Source: Spirochaetota bacterium (lineage in GTDB: Bacteria > Spirochaetota > UBA4802 > UBA5550). From it: a stretch of 64,000 nt of DNA. Shown piece after piece: positions 25,554-32,104 of the stretch. The stretch is taken from the NCBI GenBank assembly GCA_025457915.1, contig JALOTL010000015.1, forward strand, positions 1 to 64,000. The letters are read 5' to 3'. The notes under the pieces were generated by a model. That model made no database searches. It worked only from the letters and a program-made list of their open reading frames with translations, and was not told the DNA's origin. A program made the translations under genes and the position numbers. How positions within the stretch are numbered: position 1 is the stretch's first letter; the number at the start of each line of letters is the position of its first letter.

Positions 25554-26549
25554 TTACTGCTCCTGTTTCTCGAACAGTCCCTTTCTTATGTTCTCCCTTC
25601 TCCTGAACGCGTCCGCCTCTTCGCCGAACATCTGGTTCTGCGTATCCTTCAGCTTCTGCTCCCTCTGTTCCGCCGTCAGGCTCTGGTCTTTCAATATCTT
25701 CTCCTCCAGGGCCCTGTACCCGTCCTCCCTGGATTTTTCATCTTTCAGCTGCCTGTCGACGTCCTCGAGCCTCTTCACGACCTCCGGCGGAAATATTGCC
25801 TGCCTTATTTCCGTGATCCTGCCCGTCTTGTCCTGTTCACTCATCTCCGAGAGGTCCTTTTTATAGATCTCCATCATGTCCTGGTACCTGGTATAGGGCT
25901 TGGTATATCCCTCGATTTCCTCCGCCTCGTCTCCCCACATGTCGCCGTTCAGCTTCTTGAGTTTCACGAGCTTGTCTTTCGCGTACATGTCGCCATCCGC
26001 CACTATCGACATCCGTCTTATAGGGTACTCCTTGGACTTTATGTCCGCGCCGAAAAGGATGTCGGCCGTGTCCTTCCCGAAAAAATCGCGCCTGTATTCC
26101 TGCAGCTTCCTGAGATACGCGATCGCTTCCTCGGGTCCCTTCGGGATGCCCCAGGACTTGCTTTCGCCGCCGATGTCCTGCTGGTACTTGATGTACTTTT
26201 TATAAAGGGCGAAAAGCTTTTCCGCCTCGTCCTGCGGAAGGTGCGAAAAGATGTATTCCCTGGCAGCCTCCATGTGCTGGTCAAGGTCCTTGACGTCCTT
26301 GAACTTCGTCATTATTGAATCGAAAAATTTGATCGTGTACGGGTTTGCCACGTTGCCGGAAAAATACTTCTTAACGTTGGCATCGCTGAAATCCGCCGGG
26401 GTAAGAGTCACGGTTATGTCGTGGAGCCTTATGTTCTTCTTTTTATCGAATATGTAATCCTGGCCTGAAGTCTGCCTGCGGACCACCTGTACGATGATGA
26501 TGAGCACCACCAGGACGCAGACCCCGATTATTATCTTTCTCTTGTCCAT
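25554..26549 (-). CDS. lipase-specific foldase (LifO/LipB-type chaperone)
   Basis: 331 residues. A steric chaperone, anchored in the inner membrane, that folds secreted lipases in the periplasm. One N-terminal membrane segment (IIIGVCVLVVLIIIVQVV) is followed by a variable linker and an all-helical domain. LQEYRRDFFGKDTADILFGA matches the R-x-x-(Y/F)FG..A..LF block of lipase chaperones (PF03280). FPPEVVKRLEDVDRQLKDE and the end FRRRENIRKG also fit. GGAGGGG precedes the ATG. It follows two lipase genes on the same strand. Confidence 0.88.
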   Translation of the reverse strand: MDKRKIIIGVCVLVVLIIIVQVVRRQTSGQDYIFDKKKNIRLHDITVTLTPADFSDANVKKYFSGNVANPYTIKFFDSIMTKFKDVKDLDQHMEAAREYIFSHLPQDEAEKLFALYKKYIKYQQDIGGESKSWGIPKGPEEAIAYLRKLQEYRRDFFGKDTADILFGADIKSKEYPIRRMSIVADGDMYAKDKLVKLKKLNGDMWGDEAEEIEGYTKPYTRYQDMMEIYKKDLSEMSEQDKTGRITEIRQAIFPPEVVKRLEDVDRQLKDEKSREDGYRALEEKILKDQSLTAEQREQKLKDTQNQMFGEEADAFRRRENIRKGLFEKQEQ

Positions 26550-26677
26550 TCGAACCCCTCCGTATTATTATGGGCGCCTCTTTAAATTAGATTTTTCATT
26601 ATAAAACCACTGAAGAAATCTGATGGGTAATCACAAAAACTACCGTTTTTATGCCTGCCATAGGGCGCTAGTATTGA

Positions 26678-26723
26678 AAAAACCAGCTTGTTTGTCAGTA
26701 TTAAAATAAAAAAGCTGGTTTTT
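26678..26723 (-). terminator. possible terminator after lipase 1
   Basis: AAAAACCAGCTT at 26678-26689 and its exact reverse complement at 26712-26723 form a 12-bp stem with a 22-base loop, ending in a T-run on either strand. It lies about 110 bases after the lipase stop and 130 before the foldase start. If it works, the foldase would need its own promoter; the large loop makes partial read-through likely. Confidence 0.45.
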
Positions 26724-26832
26724 GTAGCCGCCCTGATTTATACATTGAATATGTCCGCAAGGGAACATCCTGATTTGATTATTAAAGGCTCCCTTATATC
26801 ATGAATATTCAGTTTCCAGACCACGGCAGATG

Positions 26833-27726
26833 TTACAGTGAATTTGACGCAAGCATGGCCGCGATCCCGGCATAGAAATCGAGAACGCCGAAGCCTGGCG
26901 TGATCCCGAACAGCTGGTTGACCATCATCATGTGGTCTATGCCGAACCTGCCCTGTTCCGCCCCCTTGAATTCGCCCCACGGCATGCTGGATACGGGCAC
27001 GACGCCGTCGTTGTCGCCCTCCCTGTTCTTCATCCAGATCCAGAACGGCAGGAGGATGTTGTTCAGCGGAGCGGGCGATATGCCATGGTACCTGTTCGAG
27101 TAGCTGAAGTACCTTATCCCGGGCACGTCCGTTACCCTCCGGTTGAAATCCGCCATCTTCTCCGGGGTCAGGCTCTCCGTCGAAACCGCGAACCTGCTCT
27201 CCGCGTCGCCGCAGAGGAATTTTCCCCATACGTTGTCCATGATCCACGCGAACAGACCGCCGGTCGCTCCGTTGATTTTCAGGATCAGGTGCGCCGCCGA
27301 TGTCCCCCTGTGGGGCGTGGACAGCGTGGTAATCGAAGCAACGGCTCCTCTCATGTCGCTGTAATGGAACACCATGTACCTGGCCGTGCTTCCGCCCATG
27401 GACTGTGCGATTATGTTGACCTTCGGCGCGCCGCTTTCGGCCATGACCCGCCTGACGAAGTTCCTGAGCTGCGCCGCCCTTATCTCGTCGGTATTGAACG
27501 CGTCCATTTTTGCCGTGTATACGCTTCCCGCGCGGCCGCCGGCCCTGACGCTTGCCTCTAGGCGTTCCTCAACCCCCCAGAAATACGGTACGCATCCGAG
27601 GAACCTGTCCGTACCGACCCATCCGTGCACCAGGACGATCGGGTACTTGAGATTTATGTTCCCGTGGACCGCCGAAGGAACTATGAACGCGGCAAAAAGG
27701 AGTATGAATAAGGTTTTTTTAATCAT
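26833..27726 (-). CDS. secreted triacylglycerol lipase (family I) 1
   Basis: 297 residues with a clear signal peptide (LFILLFAAFIVPSAVHG). The alpha/beta hydrolase domain starts YPIVLVHGWVGTDRF; the nucleophile elbow is IIAQSMGGSTARY (Ser near residue 118); the acid is likely in GDNDGVVPVSS and the His in GIDHMMMVNQ. HGW..., QSMGG and the closing LFGITPGF pattern match Pseudomonas/Burkholderia-type family I.1/I.2 lipases that depend on a foldase, which is encoded next. A paralogue lies just upstream. Likely hydrolyses long-chain triglycerides outside the cell. Confidence 0.9.
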   Translation of the reverse strand: MIKKTLFILLFAAFIVPSAVHGNINLKYPIVLVHGWVGTDRFLGCVPYFWGVEERLEASVRAGGRAGSVYTAKMDAFNTDEIRAAQLRNFVRRVMAESGAPKVNIIAQSMGGSTARYMVFHYSDMRGAVASITTLSTPHRGTSAAHLILKINGATGGLFAWIMDNVWGKFLCGDAESRFAVSTESLTPEKMADFNRRVTDVPGIRYFSYSNRYHGISPAPLNNILLPFWIWMKNREGDNDGVVPVSSMPWGEFKGAEQGRFGIDHMMMVNQLFGITPGFGVLDFYAGIAAMLASNSL

Positions 27727-27827
27727 AATCTTTTAACAGGAAACGCCATCCGAAATATAGTCAAGAAAAAATCTCCCGGATCATGAAAGGAACAGTCATG
27801 GCGGCCGGAACGGCCTGCCGGAAAACA

Positions 27828-27854
27828 GAGCGGGCGCCGAAGGGGCGCCCGCTC
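27828..27854 (-). terminator. intrinsic terminator after lipase 2
   Basis: GAGCGGGCGCC pairs perfectly with GGCGCCCGCTC around a five-base loop (11-bp stem); on the minus strand TGTTTTCC follows. It begins 15 bases after the lipase 2 stop, so lipase 2 may be a separate transcript from lipase 1. Confidence 0.75.
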
Positions 27855-27869
27855 ACGCATTTTATATGT

Positions 27870-28763
27870 TCAGTATCCCCTGGATTTTATGTCCTTGACT
27901 ATGTCGACGAAGTGGGCCGGGGCGTCGAAACCCGGGGTTATGCCGAAAAGCATGTCCACGCAGGCAAGATGGTTTACGCCGGCGCCAAGCCATGACGCGC
28001 CTTCGTACAATCCCCTGAAATTTCCCCATTTAGCTGAGGTCACGGCGACCAGGCCGTCATTGTCGCCCTCGATCCCCTTCTGGATCGGCCAGGTGGCAAA
28101 GAAAAGCCCTGATCCCAGCACGCTCTTGATCCTGTATGCGTAACTCTGGTAATATATTCCCGATGCGTCCGGTGTGTTGGGATTGAATACGCCAGTCATG
28201 TAGCTCCTCGTAAGGTCTTTCAGGTTCTGGACCGCGTCCGGATTGGTGTCGCCCATCAATATCTTCGTCATCACCTCGAGAACGCCGGAGGCCACCGGCA
28301 CCTTGTTGCAGACGGCAAGGACCAGTTCCGCAACCGAGCTGCCCCTGTGCGGGCCGGCTATGCTGGTATGGGTGGCCACCTTCCCGGCCATCCCCAGGTT
28401 GGAAATCGCGTACCTGGAATAAATGCATCCATGGGAATGCCCGATGAGGTTGATTTTCTGCGCGCCGCTGATCGCAAGAATATCGAGGACCTGGCGTTTC
28501 CAGGATTCGGCCTTCGCGACGGTACCGTCGAGAGCGTTGACGCTGGTTATATAGACGGAGGCGCCGTTATCCCTGAGCGTGGCAGGTATGTTGTTCCAGT
28601 AATGAGTGATGCCCCAGGCAATTTCATACTGTGCGCCCATGCCGTGCGAAAGGACGACCGGATATTTTGTTTTACATGGAGTTGAAGATGTCCCGCCGGC
28701 AAAAACGGCTGATGCGGCAGCTAATATTAGTAATACGGCAATAAAATACGCTTTCCTTGTCAT
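27870..28763 (-). CDS. secreted triacylglycerol lipase (family I) 2
   Basis: 297 residues from ATG 28763, with GGGGGAG just upstream; the longer GTG start at 28775 is less likely. Signal peptide FIAVLLILAAASAVFAG. Motifs: YPVVLSHGMG, LIGHSHGCIYSRYA (Ser near residue 116), GDNDGLVAVTSAKWG and VNHLACVDMLFGITPGF. Same length and same ending as lipase 1, so the pair are paralogues, but the elbow is GHSHG rather than AQSMGG, as in family I.1 enzymes. Probably also served by the foldase two genes away. Confidence 0.9.
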   Translation of the reverse strand: MTRKAYFIAVLLILAAASAVFAGGTSSTPCKTKYPVVLSHGMGAQYEIAWGITHYWNNIPATLRDNGASVYITSVNALDGTVAKAESWKRQVLDILAISGAQKINLIGHSHGCIYSRYAISNLGMAGKVATHTSIAGPHRGSSVAELVLAVCNKVPVASGVLEVMTKILMGDTNPDAVQNLKDLTRSYMTGVFNPNTPDASGIYYQSYAYRIKSVLGSGLFFATWPIQKGIEGDNDGLVAVTSAKWGNFRGLYEGASWLGAGVNHLACVDMLFGITPGFDAPAHFVDIVKDIKSRGY

Positions 28764-28905
28764 GACTCCCCCCACAGAGTATATAATTTTTAATAATAAT
28801 AACAGGGGCTTTTAATCATGTCAATTGAAAAAACCGTCCAGCCGTCTTTTTTTACAAAATAATATAAATCGTATAGTAATTCTGTTACGATGGGTCAACA
28901 ATCTG

Positions 28906-29475
28906 TTATTTTTCTCCAGAAAATGACCGTACCGTCTGCCTGAAAAAAACATCCACCTCTCCCTGTCCCATCTCCCTCTCTGAAGTGGAGCTGCAGAGTA
29001 TCTCGCCGGTTTCGACGTCGACAATCCTTATGCTGATCCTTTCAAAGACGGATTCCGTCTTCACTGCCTGGCGGCCGCCTGTCTGGGCCCTGGTGCGGAG
29101 CCTCCTTAAAAGCGGGATCCTCTTTTTTTTGTCGCTTATCCTGTAGCTCCCCAGCACAAGTGCGTTTACTCCCGCGATCCTGCCTATCTGCGCTATCCTG
29201 GAATTGTCCAGGACGCCGCTCATACCGAGCTGCTGCTCCTTCAAAAGCTTTTCAAGGCCGGACCTCTCTATCACGCTGAAGCCAGCCTCCATGAGAAATG
29301 GAATGAAGCATTCCGCAAGGGCCTTGCTTTCCTCAATGTGGCTGCCGTCGAAATCCATGACCGCGAGTTTTTTATATTTTTCCGGTGAAAAGTCGCTTTT
29401 TTTAACGGTCTTGACCGACGAGCAGGCCAGCGCCGCGACAGCTATCATCAAAACAGGCGCGATTTTAATATTCAT
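28906..29475 (-). CDS. CsgG/FlgO-like outer-membrane lipoprotein
   Basis: 189 residues; ATG 29475 is chosen because GGAG lies seven bases ahead, whereas ATG 29481 is almost on top of it. The lipobox AALAC ends a signal peptide. The body has the CsgG-like pattern KLAVMDFDG, GFSVIERSGLEKLLKEQQLG, IGRIAGVNALVLGSYR and IRIVDVETGEIL. These proteins help secrete or assemble surface structures or bind cell-wall-linked partners. No curli genes are nearby. Divergent from the CULT gene. Confidence 0.85.
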   Translation of the reverse strand: MNIKIAPVLMIAVAALACSSVKTVKKSDFSPEKYKKLAVMDFDGSHIEESKALAECFIPFLMEAGFSVIERSGLEKLLKEQQLGMSGVLDNSRIAQIGRIAGVNALVLGSYRISDKKKRIPLLRRLRTRAQTGGRQAVKTESVFERISIRIVDVETGEILCSSTSEREMGQGEVDVFFRQTVRSFSGEK

Positions 29476-29597
29476 TTTCATACTCCTGGATAATTCAATT
29501 CTATACCGTTCATTTTAATGAATCAACAATTAATATGATTGTTTTACGTTTCATCGGGCATTATCTTGTACAATATCAACCGGCGGATGGAAACAAC

Positions 29598-30035
29598 ATG
29601 GAAACGGCCGTCCCGGAAAGGAACATGGACAAAGGGCACGCGTTCTACCGGCTCAAAACACCGGACGGAATGGCGTCCCCGGAAAACAATGCCGATGAAT
29701 CGGCGGGGATGGAATATTCCGACGGAAAGGGAAGGAGGATCTTTTGCGCGGCCTGCGGAAACACCGTGACCCATTCCGGAAAAAGAATATCCATCAACGG
29801 CCTGCACCGCCACGTCTTCACCAACCCCGGCGGGTACACCTTCGAGATTGGCTGCTTCATAACGGCCGAGGGCTGCGCGATAACCGGCGACCCGACTGAC
29901 GAATTCACATGGTTCCCGGGATACCGCTGGGCCTACGCCTTGTGCTCGGGCTGCCTCTCGCACCTGGGATGGCACTACAGGTCCGGCGCCGGCGCCTTTT
30001 TCGGACTGATCCTCGACAGCCTGAAGGAGGAATGA
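29598..30035 (+). CDS. CULT-domain (bacterial cereblon-like) protein
   Basis: 145 residues from ATG 29598; an upstream ATG at 29535 would add 21 residues. The CULT fold covers about residues 48-145 of this reading: FCAACGNTVTHSGKRI gives the first zinc CxxC; FTNPGGYTFEIGCF, EFTWFPGYRWAYALC, GCLSHLGWHYR and FFGLILDSL follow. Those are the zinc-ribbon Cys and the three-Trp cage that binds uracil- and glutarimide-like ligands in human cereblon and Magnetospirillum MsCI4. In bacteria the role is unknown. It ends two bases from the PQQ-OmpA gene stop (tail to tail). Confidence 0.88.
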   Translation: METAVPERNMDKGHAFYRLKTPDGMASPENNADESAGMEYSDGKGRRIFCAACGNTVTHSGKRISINGLHRHVFTNPGGYTFEIGCFITAEGCAITGDPTDEFTWFPGYRWAYALCSGCLSHLGWHYRSGAGAFFGLILDSLKEE

Positions 30036-30037
30036 CG

Positions 30038-32104
30038 TCACATGTCCAGGACCTGGAACTCGGTCCTCCTGTTCTTTTTCCTTCCGGCCTCGCTCCCGTT
30101 GTCCGCGATCGGCTTGTCCTGGCCGAACCCCTTCGACCTGAGCCTTTCCGGGCTGATGCCGTTTTTTATCATGTAATCGACGACCGCGTCCGCGCGCTTC
30201 ACCGAAAGCTTCTGGTTGTGGTCCCTGGTGCCGGTTGAATCCGTGTGCCCCCTCACCTCGATCTTCACCCTCGCGTTTTCCTTGATCGCCTGTATGATCC
30301 GGTCAAGGATGTTCAGTGACTCCTTCTTCAAATACGCCTCGTTGATCTCGAAGTAGATGTTCTCGACCACGATGGTCCCGCCCTTTTCGATTTTGTCCAG
30401 GTTTATCGTCCTGTCCGAATCCTTCTTTCCTATGATTATCTTTTTCGGCAGGTACCCGCTCGAGCTGCCGGTGATCTCGACGTCATCGGCATCGGGCACC
30501 TCTATCTCCTGCCCGGGGTTAGCGACGCGCGTCTTCCTTGAATAGACGAGCTTGCCCCTGTCCCATTTCCTGACGTCCACCTCGGCCGGCACCGGAGAAC
30601 CAGTTTTGTCGCCGACGGTGATCTTCATCTTCCTGGTCTTGAGCTCGTCTGGCTTTTCGGCCGGCTTTTCCACCGGCTTTTTATCCGGAGCGATGCTGTC
30701 CCTGTCATCCTTAACGGAGGTCTTGTCCCCGGCCCCTTTCCTGTCATCAGTCGCTTTTTTTTCATCCCCCCCTTTGTCGTAGGGATCGTAATAGCCGCTG
30801 CCGCCCTTTATTATGCGCGGATAGTAGTCCGTGCCGATGGCGTAGAGATAGTTGCCGGCCGGAAGGAACATGATCCCGTTGGAGGCTACCGGCTGGGACG
30901 CGCCGCCTGGAAACGGAGGGACGAATTCCCAGAGCCTGCCGCTCGTATCGAACCTCACCGCCTTCATGGAGGAATACGAAACGTCCCTCCCCCCGACGCT
31001 TTTCTTGAACGTGCTGGCCACGTAGAACTGGTCCCTTATTATCACGAAATAAGGGCTCGACTGATCGCCTATGTCAATCCTGGCGATCTCGCCGCCGTCC
31101 GAGGGATTGACGCGCACCAGCATCCTGTTGCCGACGGTGAAAAGGATCTCCCGCTCCGTGAAGGACGGGTTGGATGTGACAAGATCAGCGTACGATTTCT
31201 CCCAGGCCTTTTCACCGGTCTTCAGGTCGTAGCAGTACAGGGACTTGCCGGATGCGAGGTAAACCTTGCCGGAATACACCACCGGGGAAAAAATCCTGTG
31301 CGGCTTGTCAAGCGGCTTCACCCATTTTACAGCGCCGTTCCCGGACTCCATGCAGTACAGGGAGAACGTATTCTTGGCGTAGTCCATGGACTGAGTGAAG
31401 ATGAGGTTGTCGTAAAAACTCGGAAAACCGCTGTATGATTTTATCTCGCTGTTGTTCCACCTGAGGTGGCCGTCGTTGATGTCCCTTGACAGGAAAACGT
31501 TCCTCGTCCCGTAATAGATCAGGTCGCCGCTTATCATCGGGTCTGAATATATGCCGTCGACCATTTCACCGGCGTTGCTCTGCGGTCTCCAGTTTCTGCT
31601 CGTCACCGGCGTACCCCTCGAAGACCCCTGATCGCTCCACGAGGTCCTTTTGAAGATGTCCTTCTCGTCCTTCAGCCCGGTCCTGGCCCATAATACCCTG
31701 CCGGTGTTCTTGTCCATGCAGTAGACCGCGATGCTGTCAGTCAGGTAGAGCCTGTTTCCCTTTATAAGCGGGTATTTGACCTTGCCCATGGCCTTTGAAA
31801 ACGAGGCGAACTGCGCGGACACCGACGGAAGGTCCAGCTTCCATACCAGCTTACCCGTGTCCTCGTCGAGGCAGTACACGTTCTTCTTTATGTCGATAAA
31901 AAAAACCCTGCCGTCGGAAACTATCGGGTTATAGACCATCTCGGATGCCTGGAAGAGCCACTTGAGATTGTTGTTCTTCACCGTGATCTCGTCGTTATTG
32001 CCGGTGTAGTAGATGTTTCCCTTGTAAACCGGCCAGTCAGAAGACGCGAAAACCATCGTCACCTGAAGCATTACAATCAGGGCCGCAAAAAATATTTTTT
32101 TCAT
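30038..32104 (-). CDS. PQQ-type beta-propeller protein with C-terminal OmpA domain
   Basis: 688 residues; GAGG precedes the ATG. Signal peptide (AALIVMLQVTMVFAS). Residues ~25-420 are a PQQ-like beta-propeller with repeated W/G-rich blades: DWPVYKGNIYYTG, VYCLDEDTGKLVWKL, VYCMDKNTGRVLWAR, LYCYDLKTGEKAWEK. A charged Pro/Lys/Asp linker (~445-500) leads to a small beta domain and an OmpA-like domain (~580-688): IYFEINEAYLKKESL, VRGHTDSTGTRDHNQKLS, KRADAVVDYM, GFGQDKPIADN. OmpA domains bind peptidoglycan. The fusion suggests a wall-tethered periplasmic propeller, BamB-like in fold but not in context. Confidence 0.9.
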   Translation of the reverse strand: MKKIFFAALIVMLQVTMVFASSDWPVYKGNIYYTGNNDEITVKNNNLKWLFQASEMVYNPIVSDGRVFFIDIKKNVYCLDEDTGKLVWKLDLPSVSAQFASFSKAMGKVKYPLIKGNRLYLTDSIAVYCMDKNTGRVLWARTGLKDEKDIFKRTSWSDQGSSRGTPVTSRNWRPQSNAGEMVDGIYSDPMISGDLIYYGTRNVFLSRDINDGHLRWNNSEIKSYSGFPSFYDNLIFTQSMDYAKNTFSLYCMESGNGAVKWVKPLDKPHRIFSPVVYSGKVYLASGKSLYCYDLKTGEKAWEKSYADLVTSNPSFTEREILFTVGNRMLVRVNPSDGGEIARIDIGDQSSPYFVIIRDQFYVASTFKKSVGGRDVSYSSMKAVRFDTSGRLWEFVPPFPGGASQPVASNGIMFLPAGNYLYAIGTDYYPRIIKGGSGYYDPYDKGGDEKKATDDRKGAGDKTSVKDDRDSIAPDKKPVEKPAEKPDELKTRKMKITVGDKTGSPVPAEVDVRKWDRGKLVYSRKTRVANPGQEIEVPDADDVEITGSSSGYLPKKIIIGKKDSDRTINLDKIEKGGTIVVENIYFEINEAYLKKESLNILDRIIQAIKENARVKIEVRGHTDSTGTRDHNQKLSVKRADAVVDYMIKNGISPERLRSKGFGQDKPIADNGSEAGRKKNRRTEFQVLDM

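Follow-up and report, generated by a model that had tools for sequence, protein, structure and literature searches.

In drug design, bacterial CULT proteins take the place of cereblon in experiments, and the locus described here raises the question of what such a protein does for the bacterium that encodes it. A sequence-only reading of the window (the whole stretch of 64,000 nucleotides that was analysed, from a genome of a spirochaete order) had placed a CULT gene at 29598-30035 and had stated that no physiological role is assigned to the bacterial proteins, which agrees with the literature searched. The reading preferred here, to which we give a probability of roughly 0.4, is that CULT is a reader of cyclic-imide, and thus damaged, protein ends and that it can feed Lon-type proteolysis.

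Identity of the CULT protein and its ligand pocket

The open frame occupies 29535-30035 of the forward strand, and its first in-frame ATG codons are found at 29535, at 29598 (the start adopted in the sequence-only reading) and at 29625. As the best-looking ribosome site of the frame (GGAAAGGAAC-ATG) is that of the ATG at 29625, there is an uncertainty of 9 to 21 residues in the start of the protein. The gene and the features of its product are as follows.

29598..30035, forward strand: CULT protein gene, 145 aa
29730..30029, forward strand: CULT (beta-tent) core domain, residues 45-144, from the phmmer alignment to 4v2y and the AlphaFold strands
29745..29756, forward strand: first putative zinc CxxC (C50-C53), from the 4v2y alignment; invariant in 169/169 loci
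29823..29834, forward strand: NPxG hairpin-tip motif, here NPGG (N76-G79), from the alignment
29910..29912, forward strand: cage Trp 1, W105, aligned with MsCI4 W79; Trp in 169/169 loci
29928..29930, forward strand: cage Trp 2, W111, aligned with MsCI4 W85; Trp in 169/169 loci
29943..29954, forward strand: second putative zinc CxxC (C116-C119), from the alignment; present in 168/168 loci that are long enough
29970..29978, forward strand: cage Trp 3, W125, and cage-floor Y127, aligned with MsCI4 W99 and Y101; the W99 position is Trp in 168/168 loci that are long enough

The product of this gene, small and soluble, is a genuine bacterial CULT protein of one domain, confirmed far beyond chance. 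A phmmer search of the PDB returned MsCI4 (4v2y) with E = 1.2e-26 over residues 45-144 and human and animal cereblon with E = 2e-12 to 3e-9, and beyond these two no PDB match was better than E = 0.08. The profile and structure searches thus lead to MsCI4 and cereblon and not to another zinc-ribbon family, and the zinc cysteine pairs and three-Trp cage that had been noticed by eye are borne out by the 4v2y alignment, in which both CxxC pairs and all of W105, W111 and W125 are kept. The AlphaFold model has pLDDT >90 over the core, with strands from E47 to E144, and its top PDB structure matches are all MsCI4, at ~0.9 Å and for most of them within rmsd 0.8-1.1 Å over ~102 residues, with a TM score (target) of ~0.9; the whole protein consists of the CULT domain plus a short low-confidence N-terminal stretch. 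Similarity, two CxxC pairs, three cage Trp residues, NPxG, the beta-tent fold and a domain-only architecture, by which a bacterial CULT protein is recognised, were therefore all found. At the cage floor, 85 of the 169 loci surveyed have Tyr and 83 have Phe, the other pocket positions being essentially invariant; the corresponding residue is Tyr101 in MsCI4 and Phe in the human protein (PMC8900816), while the NPxG hairpin tip props the first cage Trp (PMC4449219). Zinc binding at C50/C53 and C116/C119 is predicted from the motifs, and binding of cyclic imides is strongly expected in view of the homology and the identical cage residues.

Searches of the CULT protein against Pfam and NCBIfam gave no match above cut-off. 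Yippee and Mis18 are sister beta-tent families of CULT, and the weak similarity to Yippee-Mis18 (PF03226), which at 17.6 bits against a cut-off of 26.6 falls short of Pfam membership, is what is expected from the sister fold. The TRASH zinc ribbon HVO_1752-C (PF24273) reached 20.1 of the 27 bits required, over 23 residues round a single CxxC, and was likewise discarded, the Pfam, NCBIfam and phmmer results together ruling out other zinc-ribbon families. The protein is not cereblon proper either, as it has just 145 aa and no Pfam LON match, and hence lacks the LON-CULT fusion.

Distribution and the setting of the gene in the window

In the order of the window's genome, CULT was found in 29 of 46 genomes, that of the window included, always as a single copy, and it is missing from some families. 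Elsewhere in the phylum just 3 of ~250 genomes carry it, and in the Desulfobacterota it is frequent in some orders (248/389 and 114/243 sampled genomes). The published account places bacterial CULT mainly in delta-proteobacteria, together with one spirochaete sequence (PMC4287342); the spread seen here is wider, yet of the same kind. Searches of 50,697 phage records, 72,556 plasmids and IMG/VR gave no CULT match, and a phage, plasmid or viral origin was rejected on the basis of these zero matches.

The window's gene adds an intact, ordinary member of a known family, with its cage and zinc residues preserved, from a spirochaete order that keeps CULT widely. It is a lone gene, some families of the order have lost CULT, and the copy of one relative (G044:C101:635-838, L031) is degenerate, with in-frame stop codons; that the window's CULT is itself a degenerate or non-functional leftover is nevertheless scarcely credible, since its cage and zinc residues are intact and nearly invariant in the 169 loci and since the single copy has been retained in more than half of the genomes of the order.

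The immediate surroundings of the gene are made up of the following features.

28906..29481, reverse strand: CsgG-domain lipoprotein gene, divergent neighbour (Pfam CsgG E = 1.7e-14); no conserved unit with CULT
29526..29498, reverse strand: promoter-like site toward the lipoprotein gene; consensus match only
29465..29494, forward strand: promoter-like site upstream of CULT, 9/12 consensus; consensus match only
30038..32104, reverse strand: BamB-like PQQ propeller with OmpA C-terminal domain, convergent neighbour (Pfam PQQ_2/OmpA, E = 2e-23); no conserved unit with CULT

Both neighbours were correctly described as a CsgG-like lipoprotein and a propeller-OmpA fusion, and both look exported. They are genuinely envelope-type proteins, and at one other locus of the order (L043) a vWA-CsgG-like gene lies upstream of CULT and divergent from it, an arrangement that we take as chance. 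Service of CULT to the cell envelope together with these two proteins, as implied by the sequence-only reading, is for all that very improbable. CULT stands alone between two genes of the opposite strand and shares no operon with them, the stop codons of CULT and the propeller-OmpA gene being separated by 2 bp and the promoter-like sites between the divergent pair being weak; the protein has no evident signal peptide or other export signal; and almost all relatives have other genes in place of both neighbours. No CULT neighbour family of the order recurs outside close relatives, and co-occurrence of CULT with CsgG-like and propeller-OmpA genes was not conserved. As the neighbours differ among relatives, the envelope setting is uninformative, and its presence in the window is due to chance.

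In the same part of the window (25554-28775, reverse strand), a lipase chaperone gene (Lipase_chap, E = 2e-26) was observed downstream of two adjacent lipase-like genes that encode secreted-looking alpha/beta hydrolases; the Pfam model takes its name from proteobacteria, although the gene here belongs to a genome of a spirochaete order.

Genes that recur beside CULT

The neighbourhoods of 169 CULT loci were compared, 27 being from the window's order (the window included), 3 from elsewhere in the phylum and 139 from Desulfobacterota; open frames were called mechanically, so that some of the neighbours are short or spurious frames, and neighbours were clustered. No conserved envelope context emerged, and a LonC-type protease was found beside CULT in one clade. 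The earlier remark that this CULT gene has no proteolysis gene with it stands for the window, where no Lon, LonC, RadA or PIMT homologue occurs within 64 kb, but fails for the family, in which Lon-type proteases adjoin CULT elsewhere.

The clade in question comprises a distinct CULT subtype, with all cage residues kept, in 6 genomes of one order of Desulfobacterota (that of G428), and in 5 of these 6 the gene is adjoined by LonC in one of two gene orders. CULT is followed by LonC and a nuclease gene in G428 (L096), G589 (L093) and G757 (L102), and LonC precedes CULT in G753 (L103) and G754 (L104); in the sixth genome, G747, the LonC orthologue and the CULT subtype are both present and unlinked. 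Adjacency in 5/6, as compared to one LonC-like gene near the other 163 loci, gives a Fisher value of 3e-8, and the presence of a LonC orthologue (66-100% identity) in 11 of the order's 85 genomes and in 6/6 of those with this CULT gives a hypergeometric value of 1e-6, both calculations ignoring relatedness. The 6 genomes sit in a 10-member CULT clade (0.997 support), the remaining four members of which have no local LonC. G744, in which the MBL-LonC-nuclease locus is flanked as in G428 with no CULT in between, indicates that more than inherited synteny is involved. CULT has shifted relative to LonC and yet has remained close by, a pattern that usually signals a functional tie, albeit among related genomes.

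The five linked LonC proteins are 67-87% identical, and all retain a Ser-Lys catalytic dyad, with the Ser in GDSA and the Lys in RKxE; the LonC helical and AAA_32 domains are present, PF20437, PF13654 and PF05362 being above their cut-offs in the three examples L093, L096 and L104. Their closest solved relative is MtaLonC (4fwd, E = 4e-89), which degrades unfolded protein independently of ATP (PMC3391209), and by this homology the linked protease would be of the LonC type in its biochemistry as well. A gene for a bifunctional-nuclease domain (PF02577) usually follows LonC at these loci, and a conserved gene of 163-167 aa with no family assigned lies near CULT-LonC in L093, L103 and L104.

Two single cases observed in the window's own family lead in the same direction. 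In G006 (L049, 190-2408), a LonA with LON substrate-binding and AAA domains starts 140 bp downstream of CULT on the same strand, and in G005 (L037, 309-1404, reverse strand) the gene of the protein-damage methyltransferase PIMT (PCMT, E = 1.5e-38) is directly upstream of CULT, and the last 18 nt of PIMT overlap a CULT ATG that is in frame. By our estimate, which assumes a few Lon- or PIMT-type genes per ~3,500-gene genome, ~0.1 occurrence of each would be expected by chance over the survey, and because both were noticed after looking they are treated as leads and not as proof. A literature search of papers outside subscription turned up no previous description of bacterial CULT genes linked to Lon or PIMT genes.

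The commonest conserved context is of another kind. At 38 of the 47 loci of one order (that of G296, named Desulfobulbales from one record, L003), CULT comes directly after cobA/hemD and in the same orientation, with the first ATG of CULT at -47 to +82 nt from the cobA/hemD stop in 32 of the 38. The pair occurs at L059, L077, L086, L087 and most of L162-L200, often inside an adk or hemC block. A role for CULT in tetrapyrrole metabolism, in which it would be expressed together with uroporphyrinogen-III synthase/methyltransferase and would bind a tetrapyrrole-derived cyclic imide or regulate that enzyme, would account for this position, and there is a curious parallel in human UROD, which acts next on uroporphyrinogen and is a PCMT1-dependent cereblon substrate (PMC11974815). 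We consider this role distinctly improbable, as the context is limited to one order and is absent from the window's order and elsewhere, and CULT may simply hitch-hike in the operon; the C-termini of CobA/HemD, moreover, end in Asn or Gln no more commonly than background. The same lack of Asn/Gln enrichment leaves the cobA/hemD-CULT operon unexplained by the idea that CULT reads imide ends.

At ~10 loci of a second Desulfobacterota order (L061, L063, L112, L116, L124, L125, L139, L143, L146 and L148), an asparagine synthase gene (AsnB) is divergent from CULT, and an EF-G-like gene is usually found downstream of CULT. Operon partners as imide substrates by way of Asn/Gln ends were rejected, as no enrichment was found in CobA/HemD or AsnB. 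In the window's order, the gene that directly follows CULT in L035 and L040 encodes an ATP-pyrophosphatase (TtcA/TilS-like by eye), the two genes being homologous; that of L040 overlaps CULT by 4 nt.

Proposed role and comparison with known proteins

The reading of damaged protein ends is made sensible by the biology of cereblon. Human CRBN recognises C-terminal cyclic Asn/Gln, aspartimide best (PMC12117711), and human PIMT (PIMT/PCMT1) makes a cyclic-imide degron on C-terminal Asn (PMC11974815; Zhao 2025 via PMC13001092). The zinc-pinned beta-tent of CULT would enclose a cyclic imide or uracil-like ring of five or six members between its three Trp residues, and the likeliest ligands would be proteins in which cyclisation of a C-terminal Asn or Gln has produced an aspartimide or glutarimide, a form of protein damage. 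The likeliest role for CULT would be to capture such imide-ended proteins or peptides, which a Lon-type protease would then remove, in a bacterial counterpart of the service that cereblon renders to the ubiquitin system. What the analysis itself establishes is the fold, the intact cage, their conservation throughout the family and the physical linkage of CULT with LonC in a single lineage. From the known biology of CRBN, PCMT1, LON and MtaLonC we infer, and only infer, that CULT would hand imide-ended proteins over to the protease. For the window's unlinked CULT, which would work with a protease encoded elsewhere, both imide-end reading and hand-over are an extrapolation from the family. Several results speak against proteolysis: most of the 169 loci, the window's included, have no linked protease or PIMT; the LonC link is restricted to one CULT clade of related genomes; and cobA/hemD is not a proteolysis context.

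The rival suggestion that CULT senses or carries a small molecule, be it uracil, uridine or another cyclic imide metabolite, and is unconnected to proteolysis, draws on the binding of uridine by MsCI4 in the manner of thalidomide (PMC4449219), on the single-domain protein and lone transcription unit of most relatives and on the lack of a conserved protease neighbour at most loci. We judge it rather unlikely, since no DNA-binding or enzyme domain is fused to CULT, no pyrimidine gene was noticed among the recurrent neighbour families, and the LonC linkage and PIMT overlap would be left unexplained.

With the reading of imide ends for Lon-type proteolysis preferred, the survey makes the role of bacterial CULT a concrete, testable link at the level of the family. 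If CULT does read damaged ends for such proteases, the clearing of damage by cereblon would predate ubiquitin. A fuller proposal, which we hold to be unlikely as it stands, is that of a ubiquitin-free cereblon pathway in which PIMT and spontaneous damage write, CULT reads and LonC or LonA destroys, the LON and CULT fusion of eukaryotic cereblon being an echo of an older partnership.

Among known proteins, the closest to that of the window is MsCI4 (MGR_0879, 'cereblon isoform 4' of Magnetospirillum gryphiswaldense; 4v2y), also a free-standing CULT protein, of ~44% identity, with the zinc site, the three cage Trp residues and the Tyr at the cage floor in common; the window's protein differs in a low-confidence N-terminal extension of 20-40 residues and in its host from a spirochaete order. 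The LonC of MtaLonC type that adjoins CULT in five Desulfobacterota genomes is absent from the window. Yippee and Mis18 are set apart by scores below cut-off, whereas the window's protein keeps every Trp of the CULT cage and matches cereblon. Secreted animal CULT proteins are free-standing too (PMC4287342), but possess a signal sequence, none being evident here. In human cereblon, the thalidomide-binding domain shares the fold (28-29% identity, rmsd ~1.4-1.9 Å) and the cage, and a LON domain precedes the CULT domain (PMC4287342); the window's protein, in contrast, lacks the LON domain, the DDB1-binding region and a ubiquitin system, and has Tyr in place of Phe at the cage floor.
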